Source: Elusimicrobiota bacterium (GTDB lineage Bacteria; Elusimicrobiota; Elusimicrobia; F11). Taken from it: a stretch of DNA of 32,272 nucleotides. Shown here one piece after another: positions 11,521 to 30,446 of the stretch; positions within the stretch are counted from its first letter, which is position 1, and each line of letters begins with the position of its first letter. A model generated the notes under the pieces. That model saw nothing but the letters and a program-made list of their open reading frames with translations. It had not been told where the DNA came from and did not search any database. Location of the stretch: positions 18,857 to 51,128 of the forward strand of contig PLLH01000114.1 in assembly GCA_003140895.1 (NCBI GenBank), given 5' to 3'. The position numbers were made by a program, and so were the translations under genes.

Positions 11521-12213
11521 ATGTCAAAAAAACGAATCTTAGTTGTTGATGATGAGCCTCAGATCTGTCAATTGGTAAAGGACCTTCTGGAAGAGGCCGG
11601 TTATACCGCGACGACCGCCCATTCGACGGACGAATCCGCGCAGAAGTTGAAGCTGGGGCTTCCCGATTTGATTTTACTCGACGTTCGGTTGCCGACGATC
11701 GGGGGCCTTGAGTTTTGCCGCCAGATCAAGCAAGACATCCGGACTCGGAAAATTCCCGTCATCATGTTGACCGTTCAGGACACGGAAACGGACAAGGTGA
11801 TCGGGTTGGAAGTCGGCGCGGATGATTACCTCACGAAACCCTTTGGAAACAGAGAGCTCCTGGCCCGGATCAAAGCGGTGTTCCGCCGTCTTGAGATGCA
11901 CAAAACGGAAGGAGACGCCGTTATGAAAATCGGTCCTCTTGAAATTGATCTCGATATGCACGAAGTGAAGAACAAAGGAAAAGACGTCCTTCTCACGCCC
12001 AAAGAATTTGAACTTCTCGTCTCATTGGCGAAAAATAAGAACAAAGCCTTGCGGCGGGAGGCGCTCATGTCGGCGGTATGGGGATATGATTATCCGGGGA
12101 CGCTCGGCACCATCGACGTTCATATTCGCCATTTACGGAAGAAATTGGGCGACGCGGGGCGCTACATTAAGACGTTGATTGGTGTGGGGTACCGTTTGGA
12201 TGACAAACTATAA
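11521..12213 (+). CDS. OmpR/PhoB-family response regulator
   Basis: The 230-residue regulator has an N-terminal receiver (VVDDEPQ acidic pair, phosphoacceptor Asp54 in LLDVRLP, and TKPF with the conserved Lys). A C-terminal winged-helix DNA-binding domain follows, with LTPKEFELL and a WGYDYPGTLGTIDVHIRHLRKKL recognition region. It follows its likely kinase by 12 bases with AGGAGGG upstream. Family members bind direct repeats spaced by about 11 bases. That is the spacing of the arrays at 14880-14932 and 24853-24916, making this the leading candidate to control them (inference). Confidence 0.95.
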   Translation: MSKKRILVVDDEPQICQLVKDLLEEAGYTATTAHSTDESAQKLKLGLPDLILLDVRLPTIGGLEFCRQIKQDIRTRKIPVIMLTVQDTETDKVIGLEVGADDYLTKPFGNRELLARIKAVFRRLEMHKTEGDAVMKIGPLEIDLDMHEVKNKGKDVLLTPKEFELLVSLAKNKNKALRREALMSAVWGYDYPGTLGTIDVHIRHLRKKLGDAGRYIKTLIGVGYRLDDKL

Positions 12214-12255
12214 GACGACCCCTCTTCGCGCCACCCCGCTCAAGGCTTCATCGCT

Positions 12256-13401: not shown

Positions 13402-13408
13402 GAGAACC

Positions 13409-14767
13409 ATGGCGTCTAAAGGAAAAATATTGGTGATCGACGATGAACCTCAAGTCGGGATGATCTTCTCGAAGGTTCTGGAAGCCGCCGGCTATGAGGT
13501 CGTGGCCTCCGCTTCGGGGGAAGACGGGGTGAAGCGCCTCGATAGCCACCCGGACGTCGTTTTCCTTGATTTGAAATTGCCCGGGATCGACGGTGTTGAG
13601 ACGCTCCGCCGGATCCGGAAGGTGGAGAAGAATTTGCCTGTCGTCATGATGACCGCCTATCAAACGATGGATTCGGCGGTGGAGTGCATGAGGCTCGGGG
13701 CCTGCGATTATTTGATCAAGCCGCTCGACAACAGCCGGATCAAAGAAGTCGTCAAACATGCGCTCATCATCGGCGGCGCCTCGGCCCTGTCACCCGATAT
13801 TGTCATCAGTCCCGGCGAGTTGGTGGGGCAAGGTCCCGCGTTCCAGCAGGTCCAAAAACTAATTGAGAAAGTGGCTCCGACGGATTTGACGGTCCTTTTG
13901 TTCGGCGAATCCGGAACCGGGAAAGAGCTCACGGCGCGAGCCATCCATCTGGCATCCAAAAAAAGCGCGAAGGCTTTTGTTCCCGTCGATTGCGCGGCGC
14001 TCCCGGAGACGCTCATGGAATCAGAACTCTTCGGCTATGAAAAAGGAGCTTTTACCGGAGCCGATGAGTCGCGGCCGGGACGGTTTGAAATGGCCAACGA
14101 AGGGACTCTTTTCCTTGATGAAATTGGGAATCTATCAATGTCCGTTCAGGCGAAGTTGCTGCGCGTTCTTCAGGACCCCTCGTTTGTCCGGCTCGGCGGA
14201 CGCAAACAAGTGCGGGTCACAATCCGGGTTGTGGCGGCCACCAACAAGGATCTTGAAGCGGCGGTTCATCGAGGGGAATTCCGGGAAGATCTCTACCACC
14301 GGATCAAGGTATTCCCGATCGAGTTAACCCCGCTACGAAACCGGCTGGATGATATTCCCATGCTCGTGGATTACTATTTGAAAAAATATTCTCAGGAAAT
14401 GAATACTCCTGTTAAGAGCGTCCAGCCACGGGTGCTGGAACTCTTTCAATCGTACCGGTGGCCGGGCAATATTCGCGAATTGTCGAACGCCATTCGAAGC
14501 GCCGTGGTGTTGGCCGACAATGAAATCACGGTCGAACATTTGCCCACCAGCATCCGTTTCTCCCAGGAGAAGACAGCGGCCCCCGTCGCGAACCCTCAGG
14601 GGGACGCGGGGTTACGGGACGTCATTAAGAAGGTGGAGCGGGAGCATATTCTGGCCACGCTTCATAAGGCGGATTGGAACCGAAGCGACGCGGCCAAGAT
14701 TTTGGGCATCGATTACAAGACCCTCTACAACAAAATGCGCGAACACGGTATCACCGAGCCCGAATGA
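13409..14767 (+). CDS. NtrC-family sigma54-dependent response regulator
   Basis: The ATG at 13409, with AGGAG 7 bases upstream, gives 452 residues. An earlier in-frame ATG at 13376 lies inside the preceding gene. The receiver has phosphoacceptor Asp54 (FLDLKLP). The AAA+ domain has Walker A GESGTGKE (166-173), the sigma54-contact motif GAFTGA (213-218), and Walker B TLFLDEIG (233-240). It ends in a Fis-type helix-turn-helix (RSDAAKILGIDYKTLYNKM). It activates RNA polymerase carrying sigma54 from enhancer-like sites. I found no convincing -24/-12 (TGGCAC-N5-TTGC) site in this window, so its targets are probably elsewhere. Confidence 0.95.
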   Translation: MASKGKILVIDDEPQVGMIFSKVLEAAGYEVVASASGEDGVKRLDSHPDVVFLDLKLPGIDGVETLRRIRKVEKNLPVVMMTAYQTMDSAVECMRLGACDYLIKPLDNSRIKEVVKHALIIGGASALSPDIVISPGELVGQGPAFQQVQKLIEKVAPTDLTVLLFGESGTGKELTARAIHLASKKSAKAFVPVDCAALPETLMESELFGYEKGAFTGADESRPGRFEMANEGTLFLDEIGNLSMSVQAKLLRVLQDPSFVRLGGRKQVRVTIRVVAATNKDLEAAVHRGEFREDLYHRIKVFPIELTPLRNRLDDIPMLVDYYLKKYSQEMNTPVKSVQPRVLELFQSYRWPGNIRELSNAIRSAVVLADNEITVEHLPTSIRFSQEKTAAPVANPQGDAGLRDVIKKVEREHILATLHKADWNRSDAAKILGIDYKTLYNKMREHGITEPE

Positions 14768-14932: not shown

Positions 14933-15017
14933 AGGTATGAGCCTTTCAATTATTACGGCATCGGAGCCACAATTGAAGAATGAACGTCAATGCGTGTATA
15001 GAAAGGGGAAGACGGAA

Positions 15018-18000
15018 ATGAAACGGATCGGACTTTTTTCATCTCTGTTTCTTTTTGTGGCGGCGGCCTCTGTTTGCGCCGCCGTGCCGCAAGCGCCCAC
15101 CTGGCCGGCTTCTCCCTTGTCCCGAACCGATAAATCGATTTCCGCACAGTGGTTGGACAGCGCCAATCCCGCCGGGACCAAATACCGTTTGGAAGTGTCG
15201 TCGGACGGTTTCCAAACGATCGTTTCCAGCCAGACCGCCATGCTCTCCGCCACAGTGAACGAATTGCTTTCTAACACATCGTACGACGTTCGCGTGGTGG
15301 CGTTGGACGCCATCGATTCCACTCCCAGCGATTATTCATCCACTCTTCCCATTTACATGTTGGCGGCGGTTCCGGGTCTTCCCACCATCGGCTCCATTTT
15401 TACGCCGGAGAGAGACGCCGTGACGGTTCGCTGGCTTTCAAATGAAAACAGCGCCGGGACTCAATATCATGTCCAGGCTTACGTGTATCAAGAAAATTCT
15501 ATTCCGGGTGTAACCACTAAAGCCTGGGTACCGGCGCAGGCGCAGGATACGACGGACACCTCTGTTCGATTTGCGTCTCTTGCAAATAACACGACCTACT
15601 GGTTTACAGTGAGCGCAGTTCATGCCGAAGGCGGAACGACATCGCCGCGTGATCTGGGAACCGCTGTCACGCTGCCGGGAGCTTTTTCATTGATTCCTGA
15701 CCATCCGGCGAGTTCGACCGTGTGGTACGGCAGAGCCGACAGCACCATCACGTTTCAAACCGACGCTTTTGCCAATGGAGCCGCCTCTTATATTCGATAT
15801 CGCTGGCTTCCGTACCAGGACACTTTTACGTGGCCTCAGGACAGCGATCAGGCGCAGATAAACACGATTTGGAGCGGCGGGGACCTCGTTATCTCGAACT
15901 CCTACACGGCGCCCTTCTATCTGCACGTGAAAGCGTACAACGCCGTGGGGGCCTCGAACTCCCAGAGCGAGACCGTGATGGGCCCGTTCCTTATTGATTA
16001 TTTTCCGCCGAATCCGAATCCGGCTATTTTAACGTCAACGAAGACCAATACGTCGATCACATGGAATGCGAGCCAGGCAACGGATCCCAGCGGCGCCTCC
16101 GGACTTCACGCGAAACCATACGGATGGACGTTTGATGGGGGAGCCGAACTATTTACAGCGGGGCAATCGTCGCAAACAATTCATTTGACGCCGAACACGG
16201 GTCACACCATGACGCTTCGCCTTCGTGACCAGGCCCAACCGCCGAACATGACGGACGCTGTTTCCACCACCGTCGTCACCGCTCAAAATAAACCTTTGAG
16301 CGTGGCGGTGACCTTAAGCGGCACGGAAGCGGATGTGACAGTGGCGGGCGATTTCCCATTTATTACCGAAGGCCTGTCAGGCCTTCAGGTTCGATTGTCG
16401 GATTCTCATACGGAAATTTTCTCTCCCATTCAGCAAACAGTTTCGTTCCACTTTACGGGGCTACTTCCCAACACGGTTTATGAGATGAAGGCCAAAGCCT
16501 TTAACCGGGCCGGCGAAGAAACCGATTGGTGCACAGCGGGTACTTTCACAACTCCCGGCGGGCCCGCCCACATCACGGCCGATAAGGCCCCGTACAATCC
16601 GCCGAGTCCCGGAGGGATATATAAAGGAGGAACGGTGATTCGGTTCACCGACGACGGCGCTTACGGCCGGGGCGAGGTCGCGTATTACAAATTTCTTCTT
16701 TCCGGGTCGGCTTCGGAACCGGGGCCGCTGGACTGGCAAAACAGCATCGGCATTTCGCGCGGCAGTTGGGCCAGCGCTCCGTTTAATGGAACCCAGAGCT
16801 TTTACGCTCATATTCGCAGTTATGACAGCAGCAATCAGTCCATCGCGGGCGGATACACCCGGCTGGGGCCGTGGTGGATCGATAACGATCCGCCGATAGA
16901 CGTGGGAACGCCGACGGTGGATGTGAGCGGCAGTTCCACGCTGGTCTTTAACGCCGGAAGCCCGGAAGACATTGGCCCGGCCGGTCTTCCCTTGGCTCCG
17001 TATTCTTTTGATGGCGGACAAACCTTTCAGGTGGCGGCCTCTTCTTCTTTGGTTGGCTTGGAAGCCAACTCCTATCACGCCGTGGACATCGTTTATCAGG
17101 ATTCCGTCGGAAATCTCACTCTCCCGACTCATAAAGACGCGTACACGCTTCAGAATCAGCCCACGGGAATCAATGTCACGTTGCTTCAAGGGAAACACAT
17201 CGAATTGAGCGCCGCGGGTGATTTTCCCCGATTGAATCTTAATTTGTCCGGGCTTCAATTCGGCTTACAAAAACCCGATCTCACCATTACGTGGGCTGAT
17301 TGGGTTCAAGTCAATTACGCCGCGTATGATTTGGCCTCGTTTAACACAACGTACACCTTTGTCGTTCGGGCGCGGAACGCCAATGGCGTCCTCACGGCTC
17401 AAAGCCCGCTTGTGCCCATCACGACGCCGCCAACATCGCCGAGCATCGGCGTCATTCAGGGCACGCTGAACGCGTGGGGAACAAATCCCACTTATATTTT
17501 TAAGGCGTTGGACGCCGCCGGCCCCACCACCTATGATCATTACGTCTATGCCTGGAACAAAGAAGAAGTTTATGCCGGAATGATCACGGATGTGTGGCCC
17601 GTTGGGAGTTCTCAGCTGAGTTTCACGGCCGCTGACTCCGGCAAGTGGTATCTTCATATTCGCTCCGTTAATTCCGCCGGAGATCAGATGAGCGCTGTGA
17701 CGACGATCGGATGGTTCGGGTATGACGTCGTTCCTCCGACGATGGTCCAATTCGGTGATCCGTCGACCACGATGAACAGCGTTACCTGGACGGCGCTGGC
17801 CAATACGACGGACACGTTTTCCGGCCTTCACACCGAGCCGTTGGTTTGGAACTGCGGCGACCCCGCCAAAGAACAATTTTCAACTCTTCTTAATCCTCAG
17901 ATCATTGTACTGGGTTCGCCCAATCAGCTTTATGCGATGACCTTGTGCGCTCGAGATGCCTTGGGAAATCGGAGCGCGCCTGTCTCACTATCGACCTATA

Positions 18001-21000
18001 CCCGGGCCGCCGATGTGAGCTTGAGCGCGCGCGATACATTCGCAGTGTATCAGGGATCCGTCACGGTGAAATGGAGAGACGGCGGGAACCCCAATGGGAC
18101 CCCATTTAAGGTTCAACTTTCCGCGTCGGACACATTCGCTTCGGTGGATGAAAAACGCATCGTTCGTTCTGACCCGGCCGATGGCATCATGTCAGCCCTT
18201 TTTACCGGGCTCACGACGAACACAACTTATTTTGTCCGCGTCAGCGCCGTGAACGGCCTCAACGTGGAGACCGCGCCTCTGAGTTTGGGTTCCGTGACCA
18301 CCCGGCCCCAGTCTCCCTCAATTAAAGTCACCGTCAACGCCGAAACAGACCCAGCGCCGGAAGGCGAGGGCGCTGTGTTCGCGCCCGGCACGGTGTTTCA
18401 CGCGGCGAGCCTGATTCCCTTTGGATCCGGAACCGTTGAGTATCTGCGGTGGGTGTGGAATTCCAATCCCAACAGCGTGATATGGTCCAATCTGGATACC
18501 TTGGCGGACGCCACGCATCCCATCACGGTGACGGCGTCCACGAAAGGGCGCTATTACCTGCATGCGGCGGCGTTCAGCGGCGGCGGAATGTCGGCGAGCG
18601 ACAACCCTGACGAAATCGTTAAAGGGCCGTTCAATATTGTGACGGCCAATGACTTTACTCCGGCGTTCGTTTTCGTTGAATCCAGCACGAACACCATCTC
18701 AATCAGCCAAGCGATCGTCGTTGGAGATCAATTCGCCGGTGTTGCGGAACCTTATGGATATCAGCTCGACGGGGGCGACATCCACTGGGACTCAAAGACG
18801 ACGTACGTCGCGACAAGTTTAGAACCCAATAAGTCTTATTCAGTTCATATCTATTTAAAGAACGCGGTGCCTCAGATTTCAAGCGCGGTGAGCCAAACGG
18901 TAGTGACAAAACAGAAAACACCGGAGCTGATCGTTGCTTCCAACGTGTCGGAGTCAAGCATGACATTGACCGCCAGCACGCCTGGCGGGTTTTTCAATAC
19001 CGGCGCCGACCCCACCGGTTTCAAATTTAGTTTGATATCCGGTCCTATCACGATATCCCCTGCCTGGATAGTGAACCCGACATTGGTTATTCCGGCGGGG
19101 GGGCTTGATCCCAATAGAACCTATTCAGTGACAGTGCAAGCCCGGAACAGCGCTGGCGATGTGACGCCTCCATCCATCGCATTTTCGGTGACAACTTTGG
19201 CCAAAATTCCTTCTTATCCCAATATCAAACCTGATACCGTTAATAATGTTTCCGATTTCGACGTGAATGGATATTACAAGCCCGGAAAACTCTTTTCCTT
19301 CAGCTCTTCAGACTGGGCGCTCGTGAATTATTACAAGGTCATCGTCGATCAAAACGACAAAGTGATGGACATGAGCGCTTACGACAATGCGGCGCTGGCC
19401 GCCACATGGATCAGCAACAAATTCTCAACGGCGCCCGCCGCGGCGGGAACGTATTACTTTCATTTCCGTTCTTACAATAGCGCTAACGTGGGAGGACCGG
19501 ACTATACTTTCGGTCCGGTTTACATTGACGATCAATCGCCCACACCGAATCCACCTGTTTTGGCGGGAGTTGATGTGTCTGCGGAACAAGTCATCTGGAC
19601 CGCGACGCCCGCCACGGACGGGGGGGGCGCCGGATTGGACGTGAACCAGGCGTACAATTTCCAATACCCCGACGGGGTTTGGGGTGCCTCTACAACAACG
19701 ATGTACAATCTTCAACCCAACACGCGTGTCTCCATTAGTTTGGTGGTTCGCGACCGCATCGGGAACGTGACCTCCGCGTTGGATAAATCCACGGTCACGA
19801 AAGCGGCGGTTCCATTCCCATTCAGTAGTTCTCTCAATGACGTAACGACCGGCGGATCGTCGGCTTCCATGGGATGGGAGAAGCAAAACAACTCGGACAA
19901 GACGGTTTATGAGATCGGCGCCTCGCTCCTGCAGGATATGTCCAACCCGATTGTGCAAGCGGTGGGAACGGATGTGTCGACGGGAGAGATTACGGGGCTT
20001 CAGATCAACACGGATTATTGGTTCGCGGTCAGAGCCGTGAACGCCTATGGGTTCCGGACGGCGTGGGCGCTCGTGGGAAGTCACACATGGAAAACGAAAA
20101 ACGAGATTGTCACCCCCAGTGTCAACGTCACTCAGGTTTTAACGGATTCCATTCAAGTGGAGTGGTTGGCGAGCATTTATCCAGTCGGAACGACTTTTGA
20201 AGAGCTTCATAACAGCGGCGGCATTCTGGATGAAACGCCACCGCCGGTGGCCGCGAGTTCTCCTCACACGGTTTCAGGCCTCACGCCGAACATGAACCAT
20301 ATTATTGGGATTCGAGCGAAGAGCGCCTCCAGTGTCTACAGTTTGTACGCGACGGTGAGCACGACCACCCTGGCCGACGCCCCGGTTCTGCAAACGTTCA
20401 CGCTGAATGTGACATCGGCCTCCGTGGCATGGACGGCGGCGCGTAACCCGATTGATACGAAATACGAGATCCGGGCCTCTCTCGTCTCGACGCTGGACCA
20501 ATTTACGGACGTGAAATCGACCATGACAGGAACCAATGGCGTTCTAAAAGGGCTCATTCCCGATACCGATTATTATTTCGGCCTGAGGGCTTTGGACCGC
20601 ACGGGCCGTCCGACCGCCTGGGTTTCGTTGGGAGAGGCTCGGACCCCTGTGATGCCCCCGCAACTGCCGTATTCGTTCACCAATCTGACGGGAAACTCGA
20701 TGCGGCTCGACTGGGGCGGAGGAACCAATCCGACGGGCGTTCAATACGTGGTAGACCGTTCCATTGATCAATTTGCTTCGGCTCCTCAAAAAACAGAAAC
20801 GATCGCCAACACGTATGTGGCGCCGGCGGATCTCGCTTTGAACACAACCTATTATTACCGCGCCAAAGCGGTGAGCTCAAATGGAGAATCGGCTGTTGTG
20901 TCGTTGGGAAGCGCCGTGACTCTTTCAACGATGCCTGCCGCCGGCGTTCTCTCGCCTGGAATTAATTATGTGGGCGTGAGTTGGTTGCCGAACGGGAACC

Positions 21001-24000
21001 CTTCGGGGACGATTTATTATGTCGAAGCGGCGGATAATCTGGCGTTTATGAATTTGATCCGCAGTAATAATGTGACGGATCAACAGGTTCGCATCGAGGG
21101 GTTGAAACAAAACACGACGTATTGGTTCAAACTCTATTCCGTGAACTGGGCGGGGGCGATCTCGGACGCTCTGTCGCCGGGGTTCGCCATCACGCAGGTG
21201 TCAACCCCGGTGCTCCCGACGTGCGAGGCCAAATGGAACGCCTCGTCCGGGACGTATGTCCATGTGATCATTAGCGCCGGCGACATGAATCCGGAAGACA
21301 CGCTCTATGCCATTTTTAACACCAACACCGCCGCCTATTTAACCGGCGATGGTTCATCGTCTCCCACGCCTGTTTGGTTGACGCGCACCGACTGGGATGG
21401 AAGCGGAACAGAGGTGAATCCAGGGAAAGCCATCCACGCGCACTTGTCACCGTGGACGGAATACGGGTACAAGATTCGAGCGAAGAACCGGGCCGACGTT
21501 TTATCCGATGGTTTCTCTGACGAGCAAACAGTGACGACGGTTCCAGGGAAGCCCAGCTTGACTGCTTCGGTGGCGGAGCAGGATTATGTCCGGCTTCAGT
21601 GGGCCAGCACGGACGCCGAAGTGTTCCGTATGTACGTTTCCCCAACCGGCGTCGCCGGTTCTTTCACCGCTTACCATGATTACGTTGCTGCTAATGTAAA
21701 TATTCATTACATCAAACAGGAAGGGCCAAATGATATCCCATACAATTTGCGGGAAATTCGTCATGATGCGGAGGGAGGAACCCCCGCCCAGGCCGGAGGA
21801 TTTGCTCAAACGCTCGTCAGTACGGATTCCATTGCGTTTCAATGGGAGACGGTTGTCTCTCCAGCTCCGGCGCCGCGGTATTATTATTATCTGAGAGGCG
21901 TCGGGCGTTTGGAGGAAGAGGGCGAGCCCTCGGACACGGTGTCGGCGCAGGTGGTTCCCGTCATCAGCAGTTATGTGATTGCCGGGACGAGAACGGGAAA
22001 AGACACGGACCCTCAATATCAATTTGTCGCTCCGGCTGGAACGTCCGTGACCGTTCCGAATTTGCAGCCGAACACCCATTTGCGCGTGGGCCTCAAAGCG
22101 CGCTCGTCTGATGGATTGGAAGGGGTGAGTTCCAACCCCATCGACGCGTGGTCGCTGGCGAATGTTCCTGGCCAGCCCGTGGTCACGTCCGGTTTTGATG
22201 ATTCCCACCACGTTTTCTTGAATGTTGATTTCAGCACCTCGGGGAACCCCGCTCATACTCAATACGCCATACGATGGGTGGAAGGGAATAAGTATATCGC
22301 CGGCGGCGGAACGACGACTGGTTTGACCGACATCAATTGGCTCACGAAAGAGGAATGGGATCGCGGGTTCACTCACACGGGGCTTCCGACAGCGACGACG
22401 TACACCTACGACGTGTTGGCGAGAAACGGCGATAAATCCGGGGGGCCGCATATCATGACGGTCCCGTCAGCGCCCGGGTCGGGTCAAACCATCAGCTTCC
22501 CGCCTCCAACGCAGCTGTCCGGGAGCGGGGCGTCGCAATCGGCCATTTTGTGGACTTGGATGGACAATTCATCGGATGAGACAGGATTTGAAATCGATGA
22601 AACGGTGAGCACGACTCTCGTCACGCGCGTCTCCCGAGTGGGCAGTATTCCTCAAGCGAACACCGGGACGTTGAACGCGACGGAATCAGGCCTTCCGACG
22701 CCGAATACGCCCTACAGCAGAACTGTTCGGGCGTCCAATGTGAACGGGTATAGCTTTTCCTCCGCTCCTGCGGAAGCGTGGACGCTGGCCATGGATCCGG
22801 ATGTGGAGTCCACCACGCATAAGATCAACGAGGTCTCGCAGGTCATCAAGTTTAAGTTTAAGAACAATCTGATCTTTGGACAGGGAACGGCCCATCACTA
22901 TTCGGTCAAATTCACGACGAGTCCCGCCTACGTCTTTTCTGGAACGGAAGTTCGCTGGGACGACCCGGCGGAGATCAAAGAATTTACGAGGGATGTGATC
23001 GATGTCAACACCAGCTGGTATCTGCACGTGTTGAGCTTCAATAATCAGAACACGCCGTCCGTGCACCGCGTGCTGGGGCCGTATCCGTTGTTCCAGGACG
23101 TTGTTCCGCCGGAAGTTTCCGGGTTTAGCCAGGACGGGGCCCAGGCCATCAGCGGGGCCCGCCCGGCGTCTGAAATAGGTTCGATGTTGAGCGCGAAAGC
23201 GGTGTCCAAGAAAAGCGTGAAGTCCGCGCCCACGGAGCCGCAGTTGGACGTCTCCTTTGCGGCCTCCATTCCGTGGGTGCCCTCGGTCCACACCATCCAT
23301 ATTGGTTTCACCAAACGGCTTGATCCGGACACCGTGACCAGCAAGACAGTTCTTGTCCGGGCCATCCAGAATAATTTGAGTCAAGCTGTCAGCAACTCTC
23401 AGCCCATCTCATGCTCATTGACCTATAACGATGCGGAGCAGCGGCTGGACGTCGGGTTTCCTCAGCCCGGTCTTCCGCCGGGGTATCTCTTTGAATTGGA
23501 GTTGACCAAGGGCGTGTTGGATACCGGGGGGAATTCTCTGGCGGAAGAATTCCGCTACTACTTCAGGACTTTCCTCGATCCGGGAGTTGACAACGAATTG
23601 ATCACCAGCGACGGCGGGATCATTTCGACTCGGATCCACCTGTCGGCCGGATCTTTGCCGAAACAAGGCGCCATTGGGGCTGAAACGGATCCCGCCAGTT
23701 ATTCCTGGGGGTTTGATTCCAACGCTCAGAAGATAGCGACGGAAAAGCAGATGTCGATTGGGGGCGCGTTTGCCCGGCCGATCTCGCAACGTTACCTGGG
23801 GCTCTTTGACACCAACCATAATTTGACGAACGGCAAGTTGAAAGCGCCCGCCGTCATCATGATTCCCTTTTTCGATGAAGACAATGACGGCTATGTGGAT
23901 TCTGTTCTGCCTCCGGGCCGCCGGAATGTCCAAACAAACAGTCTTGATGGATTGGCCCAAAACGGGGTTCGGATTAAAGTGTCGAATCTGGGACTCTACC

Positions 24001-24398
24001 GGTTCGATCAGGAAACGCAATTGTGGATTAAGGTGCCGGGGGCTCAAGTCGACACCCAGAGCAAGACCGTGGGCGGGCAGATTTACCAGATGGGGCTCTA
24101 CGCGGTCTTGGGGACCGCTTCCAACGACGTGTCCAACACGTACGCGTATCCCGTTCCGTTTGTGGCTTCAAAAGACAGGGAAATAAAGTTCGTTAACCTG
24201 CCTGACGCGGGGGAGATAAAGATTTATACTGTGGCCGGAGAATTGGTGAAAGAGATCCGTTTCGACGCCACACGGTCGGACCCTCTTGCGTGGGACGTGA
24301 AAAACGAGAGCGGAGAAAAGCTGGGAGCTGATGTCTATCTTTATCAGGTCAAATCAGGAGGGAACCAGAAGACAGGGAAACTTGTCATCGTTCGATAA
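15018..24398 (+). CDS. Giant secreted fibronectin-III-like repeat protein with Por-tail-like C terminus
   Basis: The chosen ATG (15018) begins a classic signal peptide (MKRIGLFSSLFLFVAAASVCA) after a GGGGAAGACGGA ribosome site. An in-frame ATG at 14937 would precede it poorly. The 3126-residue product has two FnIII-like modules (about 25-221), five super-repeats (222-1694), further FnIII modules (1695-2592), an extra copy of the super-repeat's first module (2593-2705), and a Ser/Lys/Ala linker. A Big_5-like Ig domain (about 2740-2850) follows, then a region with a DEDNDGYVD calcium-loop-like motif (2952-2960). A FlgD-Ig/type IX secretion-tail-like domain lies at 3042-3126. No enzyme domain is seen. 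A cell-surface adhesin or structural role is likely, with export by Sec and then a PorV-type route (inference). Confidence 0.88.
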   Translation: MKRIGLFSSLFLFVAAASVCAAVPQAPTWPASPLSRTDKSISAQWLDSANPAGTKYRLEVSSDGFQTIVSSQTAMLSATVNELLSNTSYDVRVVALDAIDSTPSDYSSTLPIYMLAAVPGLPTIGSIFTPERDAVTVRWLSNENSAGTQYHVQAYVYQENSIPGVTTKAWVPAQAQDTTDTSVRFASLANNTTYWFTVSAVHAEGGTTSPRDLGTAVTLPGAFSLIPDHPASSTVWYGRADSTITFQTDAFANGAASYIRYRWLPYQDTFTWPQDSDQAQINTIWSGGDLVISNSYTAPFYLHVKAYNAVGASNSQSETVMGPFLIDYFPPNPNPAILTSTKTNTSITWNASQATDPSGASGLHAKPYGWTFDGGAELFTAGQSSQTIHLTPNTGHTMTLRLRDQAQPPNMTDAVSTTVVTAQNKPLSVAVTLSGTEADVTVAGDFPFITEGLSGLQVRLSDSHTEIFSPIQQTVSFHFTGLLPNTVYEMKAKAFNRAGEETDWCTAGTFTTPGGPAHITADKAPYNPPSPGGIYKGGTVIRFTDDGAYGRGEVAYYKFLLSGSASEPGPLDWQNSIGISRGSWASAPFNGTQSFYAHIRSYDSSNQSIAGGYTRLGPWWIDNDPPIDVGTPTVDVSGSSTLVFNAGSPEDIGPAGLPLAPYSFDGGQTFQVAASSSLVGLEANSYHAVDIVYQDSVGNLTLPTHKDAYTLQNQPTGINVTLLQGKHIELSAAGDFPRLNLNLSGLQFGLQKPDLTITWADWVQVNYAAYDLASFNTTYTFVVRARNANGVLTAQSPLVPITTPPTSPSIGVIQGTLNAWGTNPTYIFKALDAAGPTTYDHYVYAWNKEEVYAGMITDVWPVGSSQLSFTAADSGKWYLHIRSVNSAGDQMSAVTTIGWFGYDVVPPTMVQFGDPSTTMNSVTWTALANTTDTFSGLHTEPLVWNCGDPAKEQFSTLLNPQIIVLGSPNQLYAMTLCARDALGNRSAPVSLSTYTRAADVSLSARDTFAVYQGSVTVKWRDGGNPNGTPFKVQLSASDTFASVDEKRIVRSDPADGIMSALFTGLTTNTTYFVRVSAVNGLNVETAPLSLGSVTTRPQSPSIKVTVNAETDPAPEGEGAVFAPGTVFHAASLIPFGSGTVEYLRWVWNSNPNSVIWSNLDTLADATHPITVTASTKGRYYLHAAAFSGGGMSASDNPDEIVKGPFNIVTANDFTPAFVFVESSTNTISISQAIVVGDQFAGVAEPYGYQLDGGDIHWDSKTTYVATSLEPNKSYSVHIYLKNAVPQISSAVSQTVVTKQKTPELIVASNVSESSMTLTASTPGGFFNTGADPTGFKFSLISGPITISPAWIVNPTLVIPAGGLDPNRTYSVTVQARNSAGDVTPPSIAFSVTTLAKIPSYPNIKPDTVNNVSDFDVNGYYKPGKLFSFSSSDWALVNYYKVIVDQNDKVMDMSAYDNAALAATWISNKFSTAPAAAGTYYFHFRSYNSANVGGPDYTFGPVYIDDQSPTPNPPVLAGVDVSAEQVIWTATPATDGGGAGLDVNQAYNFQYPDGVWGASTTTMYNLQPNTRVSISLVVRDRIGNVTSALDKSTVTKAAVPFPFSSSLNDVTTGGSSASMGWEKQNNSDKTVYEIGASLLQDMSNPIVQAVGTDVSTGEITGLQINTDYWFAVRAVNAYGFRTAWALVGSHTWKTKNEIVTPSVNVTQVLTDSIQVEWLASIYPVGTTFEELHNSGGILDETPPPVAASSPHTVSGLTPNMNHIIGIRAKSASSVYSLYATVSTTTLADAPVLQTFTLNVTSASVAWTAARNPIDTKYEIRASLVSTLDQFTDVKSTMTGTNGVLKGLIPDTDYYFGLRALDRTGRPTAWVSLGEARTPVMPPQLPYSFTNLTGNSMRLDWGGGTNPTGVQYVVDRSIDQFASAPQKTETIANTYVAPADLALNTTYYYRAKAVSSNGESAVVSLGSAVTLSTMPAAGVLSPGINYVGVSWLPNGNPSGTIYYVEAADNLAFMNLIRSNNVTDQQVRIEGLKQNTTYWFKLYSVNWAGAISDALSPGFAITQVSTPVLPTCEAKWNASSGTYVHVIISAGDMNPEDTLYAIFNTNTAAYLTGDGSSSPTPVWLTRTDWDGSGTEVNPGKAIHAHLSPWTEYGYKIRAKNRADVLSDGFSDEQTVTTVPGKPSLTASVAEQDYVRLQWASTDAEVFRMYVSPTGVAGSFTAYHDYVAANVNIHYIKQEGPNDIPYNLREIRHDAEGGTPAQAGGFAQTLVSTDSIAFQWETVVSPAPAPRYYYYLRGVGRLEEEGEPSDTVSAQVVPVISSYVIAGTRTGKDTDPQYQFVAPAGTSVTVPNLQPNTHLRVGLKARSSDGLEGVSSNPIDAWSLANVPGQPVVTSGFDDSHHVFLNVDFSTSGNPAHTQYAIRWVEGNKYIAGGGTTTGLTDINWLTKEEWDRGFTHTGLPTATTYTYDVLARNGDKSGGPHIMTVPSAPGSGQTISFPPPTQLSGSGASQSAILWTWMDNSSDETGFEIDETVSTTLVTRVSRVGSIPQANTGTLNATESGLPTPNTPYSRTVRASNVNGYSFSSAPAEAWTLAMDPDVESTTHKINEVSQVIKFKFKNNLIFGQGTAHHYSVKFTTSPAYVFSGTEVRWDDPAEIKEFTRDVIDVNTSWYLHVLSFNNQNTPSVHRVLGPYPLFQDVVPPEVSGFSQDGAQAISGARPASEIGSMLSAKAVSKKSVKSAPTEPQLDVSFAASIPWVPSVHTIHIGFTKRLDPDTVTSKTVLVRAIQNNLSQAVSNSQPISCSLTYNDAEQRLDVGFPQPGLPPGYLFELELTKGVLDTGGNSLAEEFRYYFRTFLDPGVDNELITSDGGIISTRIHLSAGSLPKQGAIGAETDPASYSWGFDSNAQKIATEKQMSIGGAFARPISQRYLGLFDTNHNLTNGKLKAPAVIMIPFFDEDNDGYVDSVLPPGRRNVQTNSLDGLAQNGVRIKVSNLGLYRFDQETQLWIKVPGAQVDTQSKTVGGQIYQMGLYAVLGTASNDVSNTYAYPVPFVASKDREIKFVNLPDAGEIKIYTVAGELVKEIRFDATRSDPLAWDVKNESGEKLGADVYLYQVKSGGNQKTGKLVIVR
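15681..20099 (+). repeat. Five tandem super-repeats of 292-298 codons inside the giant gene
   Basis: Starts at 15681, 16563, 17439, 18315 and 19209 give units of 294, 292, 292, 298 and 297 codons. Each unit has the same three modules in order. The first is a beta module ending in a (Y/F)(Y/F)(L/F/A)H(V/I/F)(K/R)-(A/S)(Y/V)N-type strand plus a GP(F/W)-x-I-D turn and PP. The second is centred on an (L/P/A)Y(G/S)xxxDGG-type motif. The third is an FnIII module with L-x-x-N-T-x-Y and RA(R/V)NxxG. Similarity is at protein level. The DNA has diverged, so these are old duplications. Confidence 0.75.
24141..24395 (+). other. Por-tail/FlgD-Ig-like C-terminal domain of the giant protein
   Basis: Residues 3042-3126 begin YAYPVPF, continue with an IKIYTVAGELVKEI strand pair and WDVKNESGEKLG, and close with ADVYLYQV and QKTGKLVIVR. 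This is the pattern of type A type IX secretion C-terminal signals (PNPF box, xxGxxV, GVYxY, GKxxV). The stand-alone protein at 24402-24743 carries the same pattern. In Bacteroidota such tails are recognised by PorV during export. Confidence 0.7.
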
Positions 24399-24401
24399 CC
24401 T

Positions 24402-24743
24402 ATGAAACCAATCATCGTTCGCTCAGCCTCTTTTATCGCGCTTCTAACGGTTCTCTTTTGCGCGCCACGCCTCTCTTTTGCCGAGCCTCATGTCTTTCCC
24501 AATCCCTTTATCGCCAAAGATCACGCGTTTGTCCGATTCACTGATTTGCCCGGTCCCGGTTCCATACGAATCTTTACCGTCTCCGGGGAAAAAGTGGCTG
24601 ACATAACGATTGCCGCCGGGGAAGATCCCAAAAAATGGGACGTCGTCAATTCTTCCGGCGATAAACTGGCCACCGGCGTCTATTTGTACCTCGTTGATAC
24701 GGGGAGTCAAAAAACAGCCGGTAAAATCGTGGTGATTCGTTAG
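24402..24743 (+). CDS. Stand-alone secreted Por-tail-like domain protein
   Basis: This 113-residue protein is a signal peptide (about residues 1-27, ending SFA) followed almost only by one FlgD-Ig/Por-tail-like domain: VFPNPF, IRIFTVSGEKV, WDVVNSSGDKLATGVYLY and GKIVVIR. It aligns end to end with residues 3042-3126 of the giant protein upstream but is well diverged in DNA. It starts 3 bases after that gene's stop with no good ribosome site of its own, suggesting coupled translation. It may be a detached export signal, a competitor or gauge for the sorting machinery, or a small structural subunit. The function is unknown. Confidence 0.85.
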   Translation: MKPIIVRSASFIALLTVLFCAPRLSFAEPHVFPNPFIAKDHAFVRFTDLPGPGSIRIFTVSGEKVADITIAAGEDPKKWDVVNSSGDKLATGVYLYLVDTGSQKTAGKIVVIR

Positions 24744-24760
24744 GCCTGCCAACTTAGGCT

Positions 24761-24777
24761 GTTACGAATTATTTACG
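24761..24777 (+). promoter_or_regulatory. Isolated TTAC pair at 11-base spacing
   Basis: TTAC at 24762 and 24773 form TGTTAC-GAAT-TATTTAC (24760-24776), matching the TTAC pairs at 14915-14932 and 24900-24916. It sits just after the stop of the small tail-domain gene and lacks a regular TTAA run before it. It could be an extra operator half or an upstream start signal. Confidence 0.35.
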
Positions 24778-24788
24778 CGAGCCATACC

Positions 24789-24815
24789 GCTTCCAGCATT
24801 TTAAATGCTAGAAGC
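24789..24815. terminator. Imperfect inverted repeat, possible terminator or operator
   Basis: GCTTCCAGCATT (24789-24800) and AATGCTAGAAGC (24804-24815) pair over 11 of 12 positions around a TTA loop. No U-run follows, so a classic intrinsic terminator is not certain. It separates the giant-gene transcript from the PorV-type operon promoter. Confidence 0.35.
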
Positions 24816-24852
24816 TCCTTCATAAGCGATCAAACCTCAAATAACCGCTTAA

Positions 24853-24916
24853 TTTAAGCTCAAATTAACCCGATCTTAAGGAATCCTTAACCCCATGTGT
24901 GTTACAGTTTGTTTAC
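24853..24916 (+). promoter_or_regulatory. Second 11-bp-periodic TTAA/TTAC array, upstream of the PorV-type operon
   Basis: TTAA occurs at 24854, 24865, 24876 and 24887 (three exact 11-base steps), then TTAC at 24902 and 24913 (11). The core CTTAAGGAATCCTTAACC matches CTTAAGGAAACCTTAATC of the first array nearly base for base. The TTAA-to-TTAC step is 15 here and 14 there. TGTTACAGT could be an extended -10. Transcription from here would leave a short leader before the AAGGAG site at 24943. Confidence 0.6.
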
Positions 24917-24956
24917 GAGGCACAAAAATCCAGACAAGGGGAAAGGAGCGAGTGTC

Positions 24957-26987
24957 ATGAAAAAAGCGGGCCGAATCAATCGAAGCCATGATTCCTCGAA
25001 TTCCGCAACCGTTTCTCTTCTGCGGGTGATGGCCTCCTTTTTTGTTTTGGCCGCGTTTTGCGCCTCGCCGGTTGTTCTTCAGGCCGCTTCCGCCGGATCC
25101 TCCACCGCCAACTTTTTGAAAATCGGAATTGGAGCTCGCGGCGCCGCCATGGGAGAAGCTCAATCCGCCATTTCCAACGATGTCACCGCCAGCTACTGGA
25201 ACCCCGCCGGGTTGGCTCCTCTTCGGTATCAGGAAATTTCGCTCATGCACTACGCTCTTGTCGAAGGGATTCGTTACGAACAAGCCAGCTTCGCTCTTCC
25301 CACGGTGAAAAACGGAACCTTCGCCATGGGCTTAAGCCTCATGAACTACGGCAATATTCAAGGCTACGCCGACACCGGGATGCCGAACGGCAACGTGGAA
25401 GCCTCCAACATGCTTTTCACCGGTTCTTGGGCGAAACAGCTTTTTGAGAAATCCGATCTGTTGACCGGCGTCAACGTTAAATATCTTAATTCAAAGCTGG
25501 CCGGCTTCAGCGCCTCCGTCCCGATGATGGACGCCGGAATTCTTCTCCCTTTTAAAACGGGCCGTCTTCATGGCCTGAGCCTCGCCGCCACGATCAAGAA
25601 CGTGGGGCCCCAAGTGAAATTTGACACGGAAGGGTCGCCTCTTCCCCGGCAGATGGTGCTGGGCGCCGGGCTTTCCGCTTTGGGAGGGAACCTGAATGTG
25701 GCGGTGGACGCCATTTCGCCCGTCGACAACAACCCCTATTTCGCGGCCGGCGTTGAATACCGCGTTTTTGAGATGCTGCATCTTCGGGCGGGATACAACG
25801 GGAAATCAAAATTTGTCGGAACCGGAATCACTTACGGAATCGGAATCCGGTTCAACCAGTGGAATTTGGATTACGCGTTCGTGCCCTACGGCGATCTGGG
25901 AAACACCAACCGGGTGAGCGTCGGCATTCGTTTCGGACGCGCTCTTAAGATGCAGACAGCGGAAGACCAGGTTGAATTCGCCTACCGGAAAGCGCAGAGC
26001 GAATTGGCTCTGGGCCAGGGCGTTGAGGCGTACAGCACGTTGAACGATTTATTGCTCATCGCGCCGTGGCACAAACCTTCCGTCGAGCTTAAAGCGAAAG
26101 TGGAGAAGCAATTCGGCGAGATGGCCGTCTCCAAAGACAAGGCGAAGATGGAAGCCGAAATCGCCGATAAATTCACGGCAGCCCAAGCGGCCTTTGATCG
26201 GGACGAGCTGGTCCAGGCCAAGAAAGGATTTGGAACCATTCTTTTACTTCAACCGGAGCATGTGGGATCCAAAGTGTATCTCGATCGGATCCAGAACCGG
26301 TATGCCGCCTTGGCCCAGGAATCCTTCAAAGAGGGAATGGCCACCTTCGCGGCGGGCGATTACCAGAAAGCCAAACTCTTCTTCGAGAAGACCCTCTCGA
26401 TCGACAGCAACCACGTCGACGCGAAGGCGCAGCTGGATAAGACGATCGAAGTGATGGCGGATTCCAAGAAACGCGATGAAGAAATGAACCGCCTGGCCAA
26501 CGCTTCCGGCGGATATAAAGACGGCCTGGCCGCTTTCCAGAAAAATGACCTCGAAACTGCTTTGAATCGGTTCGAAGAAGTGAAAAAATTAGCCCCTGAA
26601 TTCGAGGAAGTCACCCGCTATACTGAGTTGACGAAAAAAACGCTGGCCGGTGTCCTCTTTGAGCAGTCTCAGGTGCACGTGACCAACGGGCAAATGGAAG
26701 AAGCGGTGAAGAAATTGACGCGGGCGGTTGAGCTGAATCCGGCGGACACGCGGTTTAAACCCGCTCTCGATATCGCCACTCGCGATTTGGCCACCAAGAA
26801 TTTCCAGGAATCCCAGAAACTTTACAAAGAAGGGCTCGAAGCGTATCTCGGAGGAGACGGTGACCAGGCTGAAAAGAAATGGCGTCGCGCGTTGGAGTTG
26901 GATTCCTCGAATGATGACGCTTTGAAGGCCATCACCAAGCTTCAGGAACGGAAGAAATATGAGAGCCCGAACCAACAACCCCAATAA
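24957..26987 (+). CDS. PorV/PorQ-like outer-membrane barrel fused to C-terminal TPR repeats
   Basis: The ATG at 24957 has AAGGAG 8 bases upstream and gives 676 residues. An upstream in-frame start (24897) overlaps the promoter array and is rejected. A signal peptide (to about residue 45) is followed by a barrel-type region (about 46-328) with the PorV/PorQ-family opening FLKIGIGARGAAMGEA and SYWNPAGLA, then alternating amphipathic strands. Residues about 345-665 are helical TPR-like repeats (for example GMATFAAGDYQKAKLFFEKTL and AVKKLTRAVELNPAD). PorV binds cargo tails in type IX secretion. Ordinary PorV lacks the TPR half, which would lie in the periplasm and could recruit partners. The next gene overlaps its end by 29 bases. 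Confidence 0.85.
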   Translation: MKKAGRINRSHDSSNSATVSLLRVMASFFVLAAFCASPVVLQAASAGSSTANFLKIGIGARGAAMGEAQSAISNDVTASYWNPAGLAPLRYQEISLMHYALVEGIRYEQASFALPTVKNGTFAMGLSLMNYGNIQGYADTGMPNGNVEASNMLFTGSWAKQLFEKSDLLTGVNVKYLNSKLAGFSASVPMMDAGILLPFKTGRLHGLSLAATIKNVGPQVKFDTEGSPLPRQMVLGAGLSALGGNLNVAVDAISPVDNNPYFAAGVEYRVFEMLHLRAGYNGKSKFVGTGITYGIGIRFNQWNLDYAFVPYGDLGNTNRVSVGIRFGRALKMQTAEDQVEFAYRKAQSELALGQGVEAYSTLNDLLLIAPWHKPSVELKAKVEKQFGEMAVSKDKAKMEAEIADKFTAAQAAFDRDELVQAKKGFGTILLLQPEHVGSKVYLDRIQNRYAALAQESFKEGMATFAAGDYQKAKLFFEKTLSIDSNHVDAKAQLDKTIEVMADSKKRDEEMNRLANASGGYKDGLAAFQKNDLETALNRFEEVKKLAPEFEEVTRYTELTKKTLAGVLFEQSQVHVTNGQMEEAVKKLTRAVELNPADTRFKPALDIATRDLATKNFQESQKLYKEGLEAYLGGDGDQAEKKWRRALELDSSNDDALKAITKLQERKKYESPNQQPQ

Positions 26988-28317
26988 TAAACCGATTATC
27001 GCTTGTCTGGTGGTTCTCATCTGTCTGACGCTGTCTCTGCCTCTTTTTGCCTCCAATTCCGATGTGCAAACACCCGAAGAAAGAGCGCTGGCCAAGGCGT
27101 TTTCCGCTTACATGGACGGCAATGACAAAATGTCTCTCAGCTATTTCGAAGAAGTGGTTCGGATCAACTCAAAAAACCAAGCGGCCCAGAAAGGGTTGGA
27201 GAAAGTAAAAATCCGCTTGAAGAAGAGCAGCGATGTCGAACGGGCCAAAGCCAAACGGCTGGCTGAGTCCAAAATGAAAGAGGGCCGGCAGCTTCTTCGA
27301 ACCAAAGACATCGTCGCCGCCATCGATTCGTTTCATGCCGCTCAAGACGCGGTTCCTCACTACCGGCCGGCGGAGCGCCAGTTGAAAAAAATCCGGGCGG
27401 CCATGAACACGGTGTTGAAGCGTCAGCAATTTAATTTGACGGCGTGGGCCTTCGCGCGAGGCGTCATGGCCTATCTCGAGCGGGATTGGAGCAAAGCCTA
27501 CCGGATTTGGTCGGAGCGGCACTTGGTGGAGCCGGACAACGTTCCGCTTTCAAACGCCAAGCTGCGGGCGGAAAACAACTTTAAGAAGATGATGATCACC
27601 GAGCAGGAGGAGTTTTACCGGCGGAGCGCTCGGGCCTTTTATGAGCAGGGATATTACCTCCAGTCCAAAGGGTCGTGGGACAAGGTGTTGGTGCTTCGCT
27701 CCGATGATCTGGAAGCGTTGGAAGGGAAGGCTCGTTCCGAAGAAGCGTATCTCACGGTCACTGGAAAAGGACGAAACAGCGCGGCGCATGATCTTTTGGA
27801 GCGGGGGCTCGAATTTTTTGCCACGCAGGATTGGGAAAAAGCGCTGGAGATGTTTAAACAACTGGCCCAAGTGGATCCGAATCTCTCCACCGCCAACGAT
27901 TATATCGCCAAGATCAATCAGAATATAGCCTCAAGTAAAATTCGTCCCGCTTCGTCCGGAGGTCAATCGACCTGGAAACCGAATAAACCCTCCGCTCAAG
28001 AAGGCACAGACGTTGTTAAGGTTCCCGTCGGATCGGAAAATTTCGTCGAGCGTCGGCACGAGCTGGAGTCTCAACTGAAGCGGGACCCCTCCAGTATTCG
28101 GATTCAACAGGAGCTCGATAAAGTGCTCAAGGCTCAGGAGGAAGAGAGCGAGCGGATTTACAAAGACGGCCTCATTGCCTATTCTCAAGGAAATCGGGAT
28201 CTGGCGATCGATAAATGGAAGCAGGTGCTGATCATTAATCCCGATCATAAGAAAGCCGAAGCCGCTTTGAGAAAAGCCAGAGCGGAAGAAGAACGATCGA
28301 CAAAGGAGAGCCAATGA
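26959..28317 (+). CDS. Secreted TPR-repeat protein
   Basis: The 452-residue protein has a signal peptide (about residues 1-32, ending LFAS) and at least five TPR-like helix pairs. Examples are AFSAYMDGNDKMSLSYFEEV, FFATQDWEKALEMFKQLAQV near the middle, and AYSQGNRDLAIDKWKQVL near the end. A Gly/Ser/Pro-rich linker (about 330-350) divides the array. It probably acts as a periplasmic scaffold. The start codon lies inside the end of the PorV-type gene (29-base overlap, with AGGAACGGAAG upstream) and its stop overlaps the TolC-type start by 4 bases (ATGA), so the three are translationally coupled. It resembles the TPR half of the preceding protein. Confidence 0.85.
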   Translation: MRARTNNPNNKPIIACLVVLICLTLSLPLFASNSDVQTPEERALAKAFSAYMDGNDKMSLSYFEEVVRINSKNQAAQKGLEKVKIRLKKSSDVERAKAKRLAESKMKEGRQLLRTKDIVAAIDSFHAAQDAVPHYRPAERQLKKIRAAMNTVLKRQQFNLTAWAFARGVMAYLERDWSKAYRIWSERHLVEPDNVPLSNAKLRAENNFKKMMITEQEEFYRRSARAFYEQGYYLQSKGSWDKVLVLRSDDLEALEGKARSEEAYLTVTGKGRNSAAHDLLERGLEFFATQDWEKALEMFKQLAQVDPNLSTANDYIAKINQNIASSKIRPASSGGQSTWKPNKPSAQEGTDVVKVPVGSENFVERRHELESQLKRDPSSIRIQQELDKVLKAQEEESERIYKDGLIAYSQGNRDLAIDKWKQVLIINPDHKKAEAALRKARAEEERSTKESQ

Positions 28318-30434
28318 AACGGGCGGGGCGCCTCATCGTCTTTTTTGCGATTGGTTTGTTGAGCTCCAGCGTTTACGCGAAAAAGCGCCCGGTGGTCGCG
28401 GCGCCAGTCCCGCCGGAGGTGGTTGTGAGTTCTGAGGCCAGTGTAGAGCCGTCTCTCGCGTCGACCGACCTCTCAATTTCGACTCAAACAGTCCAGGCCC
28501 CGGCAGAATCTCCTCAGGTGAGTTCAGCTCCGGTTGTTCCGGCCGCGAAGCCCGCCGAGGTTAAAACGTCCACTCCAACGCCGGAGGGGCTTGTTTCCGG
28601 CGGAATGTTGCCGGCCTCAACGTCGTATTTTGACCATTCCCCTTCAACGGCGCCCGCCAACGCGGTTGAGAAAATTTCAATCGACGACACCGGAACCCGG
28701 CTTCTTGTGATGATTCACCTCTCGAAACCCACCGATTGCTTTATTTTCGAACGGCGCGACCCGCCGTCGCTCTTCGTCCAATTTATCACGACACCCGTGT
28801 TTGCCTCCGGACATCCCGTGGAAGCGGTGGGCTTGGATCCCTTGTCGGAAATCCGGTATGGGTATTCCACCTTCAATGACGCTTCCGCGGCCGCTGACAA
28901 TCGGGAAAAGAAATATCAAATCGACTTTTTGGAACTCCGGCTCAATCGTTCCGTTTTCTATCACATTCAGCAAGAAGGGTGGGTTGTTGTGATCGGATTG
29001 GATCGAACGACGACGAAAATCGAGGTTCCGGAGCTGGATTTCCGGTTCGACGTGGCCAAATACGAAGGGGCCGCCAACATTCCGAAGAATCCGCGGATCA
29101 ATGATTTTGTTCAAACAGCGCAAGCGAACAGCCGTCTCATGGCTGTGTCCCGGGATGAGGCGGAGCTGGCGAAGAAGCGGATTGTTGAAGCCCAACGGGC
29201 CCTTCTTCCCTCGGTCACCGGCCGCGTCGCCGCCACGCGAGGAAAAGAGAAAAACCCGTTCCCCAATGAAAATTTCGAGGGATTTGAAGGCGCTTCCTTC
29301 CGCCGGGACGAGTACGGCGTTTCGGTGGCCCAACCCATCTGGCAATCCGGCCGCCTCTACGGCGCCTATAAACAAGCGAAGCTCAACCGTCAGATGGCGC
29401 TTGAGAACGTACGGAAACAAGCTCAGGACCTCACGTACGAAGTCAAAAAGGCCTATTACACCCTGATCAAGAATCAGACGACGCTCCGTATTCGTCGGGA
29501 ACTGGTGGCGCAGGGAGAAGCCATCAAGTCCATGACGAAGAAAAAACTGGATCTCCATTTGACGTCCAAATCAGAACTGTTGAATGTGTCGGCCCAGGCG
29601 GATCAGGCGTCTTATCAGATGACCAGCGATGAGCAAGACGTGTCTCTCTCCCGCCTGGTCCTTATTTCTCTTCTCAATCAGTCTGACTCGGTGCCCGATC
29701 CCGTGTCGGGGGCCCTTTCCTTCGCCAAGCTCAGCTTTAACGTGGAATCCATTATTGCCTGGGCGCAGGAACATCGCCCGGATGTGCGGATCGCCCGCTT
29801 GAACTCCGAACTCGCCCGCTACAATTGGAAAGCGGCGCGGGCGGACAACGGTCTTAAACTGGATTTCTCCGGCTTTTACGGCCGGGCGGGGGCCACGTTT
29901 GATGAAGCTGATTCTGAACTCCGTATGGAGAAAGCGTGGAACGCGGGGTTCAAATTATCGCGGTCTTTCTGGGGGAACTCCGTCCGGGCCAATTACAGCA
30001 AAGAATCCACGGCGCCGGATTTGGGCCAAGTGTTCATCACGAACACCCAGCAGAAATCCGTGGAAGTGGGGCTCCTGGATGGTTTGCCCGGACTCTCCAA
30101 CGCCAAACAAGCGCAGCTTCAGTATGAAAAAGCGCAGGCGGAGCTTGTGGAAGCCGGACGGAAGGCCGAATATGAAGTTCGAGAGTCCTATTACAATTTA
30201 GAAAAAGCGGCCCGGCAAATCGCCGCCGTCCGGGAGGATATGTTATTCCGCCAAAAAGATTTGGATATATCGCGGGAGAAAGTTAAGCTGGGTCTGGCGG
30301 AATTCTCACAGCTCATGTCGGCCGAAATTTCGTCCACGCAAGCTCAAGTGACGGAACAAGACGCCTTGGCGGCCTACAACATCGCCCTCTCCAATATAGA
30401 TCGGGTGGTGGGCGCTGAAGTTGTGAAAGAGTAA
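28314..30434 (+). CDS. TolC-family outer-membrane channel with N-terminal AMIN-like domain
   Basis: The 706-residue protein has a signal peptide (about 1-22), a Pro/Val/Ala-rich linker (24-115), and an AMIN-like beta domain (about 116-232: EKISIDDTGTRLLVMIHL and PPSLFVQF). An outer-membrane efflux (TolC) region follows (about 260-700) with two repeats of long helices, such as RQMALENVRKQAQDLTYEVKK and AQLQYEKAQAELVEAGRK. TolC forms the trimeric exit duct for RND or type I systems. AMIN domains normally target peptidoglycan in amidases and PilQ, so the fusion may fix the channel to the wall. The RND pump begins 12 bases later. Confidence 0.87.
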   Translation: MKRAGRLIVFFAIGLLSSSVYAKKRPVVAAPVPPEVVVSSEASVEPSLASTDLSISTQTVQAPAESPQVSSAPVVPAAKPAEVKTSTPTPEGLVSGGMLPASTSYFDHSPSTAPANAVEKISIDDTGTRLLVMIHLSKPTDCFIFERRDPPSLFVQFITTPVFASGHPVEAVGLDPLSEIRYGYSTFNDASAAADNREKKYQIDFLELRLNRSVFYHIQQEGWVVVIGLDRTTTKIEVPELDFRFDVAKYEGAANIPKNPRINDFVQTAQANSRLMAVSRDEAELAKKRIVEAQRALLPSVTGRVAATRGKEKNPFPNENFEGFEGASFRRDEYGVSVAQPIWQSGRLYGAYKQAKLNRQMALENVRKQAQDLTYEVKKAYYTLIKNQTTLRIRRELVAQGEAIKSMTKKKLDLHLTSKSELLNVSAQADQASYQMTSDEQDVSLSRLVLISLLNQSDSVPDPVSGALSFAKLSFNVESIIAWAQEHRPDVRIARLNSELARYNWKAARADNGLKLDFSGFYGRAGATFDEADSELRMEKAWNAGFKLSRSFWGNSVRANYSKESTAPDLGQVFITNTQQKSVEVGLLDGLPGLSNAKQAQLQYEKAQAELVEAGRKAEYEVRESYYNLEKAARQIAAVREDMLFRQKDLDISREKVKLGLAEFSQLMSAEISSTQAQVTEQDALAAYNIALSNIDRVVGAEVVKE

Positions 30435-30446
30435 GTCGCCCTCGCT

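Follow-up and report, generated by a model that had tools for sequence, protein, structure and literature searches.

A candidate cargo-shuttle cassette points to a divergent type IX-like secretion system in Elusimicrobiota

The window analysed here, a stretch of 32,272 nucleotides from a member of the Elusimicrobiota, encodes side by side a giant FN3-repeat surface protein with a type A-like sorting tail of the type IX secretion system (T9SS), a small protein that carries such a tail alone (P0002), a PorV-family β-barrel fused to a TPR domain (P0003), and a second TPR protein (P0004). We consider it likely that these genes form a single cargo-shuttle cassette belonging to a divergent Elusimicrobiota T9SS, which would combine a Sov/SprA-like pore, a dedicated barrel, and tethering by TPR domains. 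Similar cassettes occur throughout the phylum, and our verdict is that this phylum-wide set, served by a distant Sov/SprA, is a variant of T9SS logic.

Published statements confine the T9SS to Bacteroidota (PMC4793230, PMC12618676) or to the Fibrobacteres-Bacteroidetes-Chlorobi superphylum (PMC11205867). Among open-access papers we found no report of a T9SS or of PorV in Elusimicrobiota, where automated annotation may already label single genes. A Sov/SprA-based system conserved in such a distant phylum would widen the range of the T9SS and would supply hundreds of natural tail-barrel pairs to reveal the rules of tail recognition. An anchoring of surface proteins that does without a sortase is also suggested.

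Components of the window module

The genes for the giant, P0002, P0003, and P0004 are all co-directional (Table 1). The initial annotation had read from the letters alone that the giant ends in a T9SS tail, that the next gene encodes that tail by itself behind a signal peptide, and that a PorV-like barrel with a TPR half of its own is followed by a second TPR protein; profile searches and structure prediction now bear out all of these assignments, and the N-terminus of P0002 does read as a signal peptide. In the giant, residues 3071-3151 scored 22.7 bits against TIGR04183 (cut-off 23) in the protein scan and 28.1 bits, over the cut-off, in the genome search. P0002 is above the same cut-off and matches Por_Secre_tail and FlgD_ig more weakly. 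Residues 69-346 of P0003 belong to the PorV/PorQ family NF033709 (cut-off 90 bits), and TPRs follow the barrel. Across the host genome (2.53 Mb, 118 contigs, 99.8% complete), TIGR04183 exceeded its cut-off in about 10 genes, both window tails included, and NF033709 did so at P0003 and 17 other loci. A scan of the genome contigs with P0003 alone as the query found nothing.

Predicted folds agree with these families. The AlphaFold2 model of P0003, built from 28 aligned sequences with a mean pLDDT of 85, consists of a barrel and then an all-helical TPR half, and in the PDB it most resembles PorV as seen in translocons of the T9SS (8gl6_F, E 2e-13; 6h3i_F, E 1e-11). P0002 was modelled as an Ig-like sandwich, for which the top PDB folds are PorZ (5m11), a translocon-bound substrate tail (8glk_D), and PorU, at E values of 0.002-0.006 that are each weak alone and all of which concern T9SS tails. 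When a profile from 26 of the genome's own barrels was compared with the PDB, PorV (6h3i_F) was matched at E 4e-32 and TodX only at 2e-8. The matches of the tail profile included PorU, PorZ, and translocon-bound CTDs, with FlgD (9e-10) slightly better than the T9SS tails; since FlgD Ig domains resemble the tail domains closely, a tail match by itself proves little. All tails fit one loose consensus.

Judging from the sequence, M28 (15018) is the probable start of the giant and 24957 that of P0003, as each gains a signal peptide with the moved start; signal peptides were judged by eye from the translations. P0004 is the predicted partner of the TPR half of P0003. It had also been proposed that the barrel opens the next operon. 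The barrel holds, but a separate operon is not required, since at L204, a locus from another family, the orthologues of the giant and of the barrel share 4 bp of coding sequence. Kinases or regulators related to those upstream of the giant adjoin orthologous modules at L201, L205, L207, and L214; their association with the export module is no more than suggestive, and the TolC and RND neighbours are probably not part of the export unit. In the TolC-family protein (28314-30434), about 260 residues ahead of the OEP domain have no Pfam identity. Further upstream, at 7107-10023, the gene for an FtsH-like AAA/M41 protease overlaps the start of a gene for an HlyD-type membrane-fusion protein.

Table 1. 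Features of the window module and its neighbours (window positions), and type B-like tails elsewhere in the genome (locus and position)
Feature	Position	Strand	Evidence
Regulators: HAMP histidine kinase, OmpR-type regulator, receiver-kinase hybrid, NtrC-type sigma-54 activator	10033..14767	+	Pfam
Giant FN3-repeat surface protein	14937..24398	+	3153 aa; translation; 12 fn3 stretches, PF00041 E 3e-50 (Pfam)
Type A-like T9SS sorting tail at the C-terminus of the giant	24147..24392	+	TIGR04183 28.1 bits (genome search); local tail HMM E 3e-24
P0002, stand-alone tail protein	24402..24743	+	113 aa; signal peptide and tail only; TIGR04183 32.3 bits
P0003, PorV-family barrel fused to TPR domain	24897..26987	+	696 aa; NF033709 165 bits; PF07719 TPR
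PorV-like β-barrel half of P0003	25101..25937	+	local PorV HMM 336 bits
TPR half of P0003, predicted periplasmic	25944..26984	+	AlphaFold2 helices at 335-669 of the model
P0004, second TPR protein	26959..28317	+	452 aa; signal peptide; TPR_2 E 1e-11; L204 ortholog in the same position, E 6e-28
TolC-family protein and RND pump (runs off the window end)	28314..32270	+	PF02321 E 7e-42; PF00873; gene order behind the module shared with L204
Type B-like tails (TPNGD motif)	L064:11419-13476; L068:7957-10448; L070:2108-6492; L077:11944-13236; L084:3533-10504		TIGR04131 best

Tails and barrels across the genome and the phylum

Local HMMs, applied to the stretches around matches, identified 28 PorV-type barrels and 28 tail genes in the genome. 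A same-strand tail gene adjoins 23 of the 28 barrels, upstream in 19 cases, and a 4-bp overlap is common; five barrels have no adjacent tail, three of them at contig ends, and some tails have no barrel. Judging from the gene numbers, well under one such pair would be expected by chance in this genome. Among the matches listed for the relatives, a same-strand tail is found within 600 bp of at least 80 of 150 barrels (upstream in 79), against about 0.7 expected. Recurring this often in both samples, the adjacency is not a product of chance. Cargo and shuttle are linked, as had been noted for the window. The pairing is, however, not special to this locus: the adjacency of cargo and barrel is the rule across the genome and the phylum. 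For some of the related open reading frames the called start is too early, which gives apparent overlaps of about 112 bases; the adjacency is unaffected.

The distances among tails correlate with those among barrels (Mantel r 0.54 for 21 pairs of the genome itself and 0.51 for all 40 pairs; p 1e-4 in both), a co-variation that duplication of the cassette as a unit could yield without binding. The cargo proteins contain fn3, Ig, TIG, kelch, PKD, subtilase, alkaline phosphatase, and glycosidase domains, which are of extracellular types, as expected of a secretome. Larger cargo does not go with a longer periplasmic extension of the barrel (Spearman 0.06, p 0.8, 18 own-genome pairs, the solo tail being taken as the cargo of the window). 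An apparent subtilase-tail-barrel fusion at L074 was also set aside: a two-base N gap (L074:6386-6387) shifts the frame there, and the locus likely consists of an ordinary cargo gene whose end overlaps an ordinary barrel gene.

Both window tails are type A-like, and five other tails of the genome fit TIGR04131 best, one of them reaching the cut-off (Table 1). Three of these type B-like tails adjoin divergent barrels, and two such barrels also match PorP/SprF (TIGR03519) at E 9e-11 and 8e-9, below the cut-off. At the sequence level, such pairs of type B-like tail and SprF-like barrel seem to echo the split in Bacteroidota between type A with PorV and type B with SprF.

Orthologous PorV-TPR modules are present in other families (L204, L201, L205, L207, and L214), and fusions of this kind occur in 25 of the 120 genomes, representing 18 of the 48 genera. 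The gene order of the window, whose conservation had been proposed as a check, is kept in part. At L204 the giant, PorV-TPR, TPR, TolC, and RND genes stand in the order of the window, but the solo tail is missing; elsewhere the order is cargo, PorV-TPR, solo tail, and kinase at L201, giant, PorV-TPR, kinase, and regulators at L205, and regulator, another gene, PorV-TPR, and solo tail at L214. Solo tails recur both in the window-type modules of relatives and in a second module type with larger giants (L199, L200). In a tail tree, moreover, tails cluster by module across families and not by genome, with moderate support for the window-type group (90/81) and 99/94 for the second type. Because it recurs and groups in this way, the solo tail is an ancient component that has been retained, not a decayed remnant.

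The best reading of these data is that a separate shuttle barrel serves almost every cargo, including those of type A, and that some of these barrels bear TPR, OmpA, or LysM modules. It is rather unlikely that standard T9SS logic applies instead, with generic type A tails that any PorV barrel can serve, adjacency reflecting co-expression only, no specific matching of tails to barrels, and a general scaffold role for the TPR half of P0003. Such an arrangement would be in keeping with the single PorV that serves all type A tails in Bacteroidota (PMC12618676), with the one consensus common to all tails, and with the barrels and tails that lack a partner next door. However, it would make 28 barrels in one genome redundant, and it sits poorly with the co-variation of tail and barrel, with the grouping of same-module tails across families and not within the genome, and with the company that type B-like tails keep with SprF-like barrels.

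A distant Sov/SprA homologue and other T9SS parts

A Sov/SprA homologue of 1871 aa is encoded as one gene at L061:10567-16182, unlinked to the window. It matches TIGR04189 in three collinear stretches (E 2e-32) and reaches 111 bits against an equivalog cut-off of 200, and is thus a distant homologue. With a profile of 29 related Sov/SprA-like proteins, SprA was the only PDB match (6h3i/6h3j, E 4e-35); a phmmer search of the PDB with a single such protein returned nothing relevant. Across the phylum, 106 of the 120 genomes encode the homologue, as do 96 of the 104 good ones. Its neighbours are conserved and comprise two genes, of 361 and 375 aa, plus one of 218 aa; a barrel rarely lies close by (10 of 61 loci). 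The result on which the initial annotation chiefly depended, a Sov-like translocon in the genome, was thus obtained. Its further suggestion of a self-contained sorting module has to be abandoned, as the pore is a single gene elsewhere in the genome.

The presence of this homologue goes together with that of tails and barrels. Among 22 genomes compared, barrels number 2-40 and tails 1-42 in the 12 that encode a Sov/SprA homologue; nine of the 10 genomes without it have no tails and seven have no barrels, the exception among these genomes being G118, a 280-contig assembly. These losses are not independent, since the genomes lacking Sov/SprA all come from one family and are mostly reduced.

Of the gldK-N, sov, and porU homologues for which a search had been proposed, Sov was recovered, and gldL, gldM, and a C25-type porU were not found in the genome. 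For GldL and GldM (TIGR03513, TIGR03517), control genomes gave no match over the cut-off and divergent forms are possible. The C25 peptidase domain of PorU-type sortases (PF01364) is absent from the host genome and was found in one of 100 genomes of the phylum, so the search is able to find it; the only matches among these 100 genomes are two partial domains on separate contigs (G006:C83:8486-8974 and G006:C55:15182-15640).

Proposed retention of cargo on the barrel

Several other barrels of the genome carry additional modules. Those at L069, L071, L075, L081, and L068 end in TPRs, the barrel at L065:7030-9477 is fused to FecR and OmpA domains, and that at L076:10128-11384 is fused to a LysM domain. 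OmpA and LysM are peptidoglycan-binding families, which suggests static anchoring, and the TPR, OmpA, and LysM modules on barrels probably anchor cargo. In Porphyromonas gingivalis, PorE, which has TPR and OmpA-like domains, links barrel-held cargo to peptidoglycan, and PG1035 has been proposed as a cap for PorP (PMC9143113).

For the window we propose the following route. Sec would take the giant FN3 protein to the periplasm, its C-terminal tail would pass through the single Sov/SprA-like pore encoded elsewhere, and the P0003 barrel of the same cluster would catch this tail. As no C25-type sortase was found, the cargo would probably stay on P0003 at the surface, where the TPR half of P0003 and P0004 may hold the complex from the periplasm, by analogy to PorE with PorP and type B cargo. 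The giant is thus pictured as probably an adhesin tethered by its PorV-TPR. The solo tail may occupy or cap P0003 when no giant is loaded, or it may be a minor second subunit. A bolder version, which is possible and which we put forward only tentatively, is that the Elusimicrobiota T9SS is sortase-free and has no known Gld motor, that every cargo, type A too, is exported and then kept for good by a barrel of its own, that barrels are fused to periplasmic anchors, and that solo tails are caps or placeholders controlling barrel loading.

Compared with the Bacteroidota T9SS of PorV and type A CTD (PMC10994853), the system described here is alike in its Sov/SprA-type pore, PorV-type barrel, Ig-fold type A-like tail, and signal peptides. 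It differs in having many PorV barrels beside their own cargo, whereas there one PorV is unlinked; in that no C25 sortase, GldL, or GldM was recognised; and in a Sov/SprA homologue of 1871 instead of 2403 aa, under the equivalog cut-off. Closer in layout is the pathway of type B CTD and PorP/SprF, in which the gene for a cognate SprF-like barrel lies directly downstream of the cargo gene and the cargo can remain attached to that barrel (PMC12618676): in both, a cargo gene precedes its own barrel gene, specific pairs are expected, and cargo may remain on the shuttle. Here, however, the rule extends to type A-like tails with PorV-type barrels, and type B-like tails are a minority. The PorE-PorP-PG1035 system of P. 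gingivalis (PMC9143113) likewise links barrel-held tailed cargo to a periplasmic TPR module, whereas here the barrel itself carries the TPR (or OmpA or LysM) module as a fusion.

It is improbable that the giant is instead a gliding or motility adhesin that its barrel moves along the surface in the manner of SprB and SprF, in which case the TPR proteins would couple the barrel to a motor. Cargo of the SprB type does remain on its shuttle and is moved (PMC12618676), and the size of the giant, its FN3 repeats, and the combination of PorV-TPR with a second TPR protein would suit such a role, but GldL and GldM were not recognised in the genome and the OmpA and LysM modules on other barrels argue for static anchoring. 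Least probable, and in our opinion very unlikely, is an explanation without export through a pore, in which the PorV/FadL-like barrels would work as simple transporters and periplasmic or surface proteins would have the FlgD-like domains as their structural ends. Although the tail profile slightly prefers FlgD and the PorV family is FadL-related, the barrels match PorV far better than FadL/TodX, the tail-barrel pairing is systematic, and a Sov/SprA homologue exists and is lost along with the tails.

The second giant-adhesin module was seen at L200 (G037:C6), L199 (G078:C10), L210 (G061:C20), and, in the host genome itself, L075 (C77), where the open frames of the giants span 17343, 7312, 8046, and 7765 aa, respectively. 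At L199 and L200 it includes the giant, a solo tail, a PorV (about 540 aa), and two further genes, of about 610-620 aa and about 1600-1850 aa. In a frame reported as 24396 aa at L213 (G029:C22:62000-73603), a tail-like domain at residues 322-395 is apparently internal and not C-terminal. At L073:1591-2892, L214:14426-16408, and L215:8642-10216, FlgD/tail-like domains follow the barrel, on the predicted periplasmic side.
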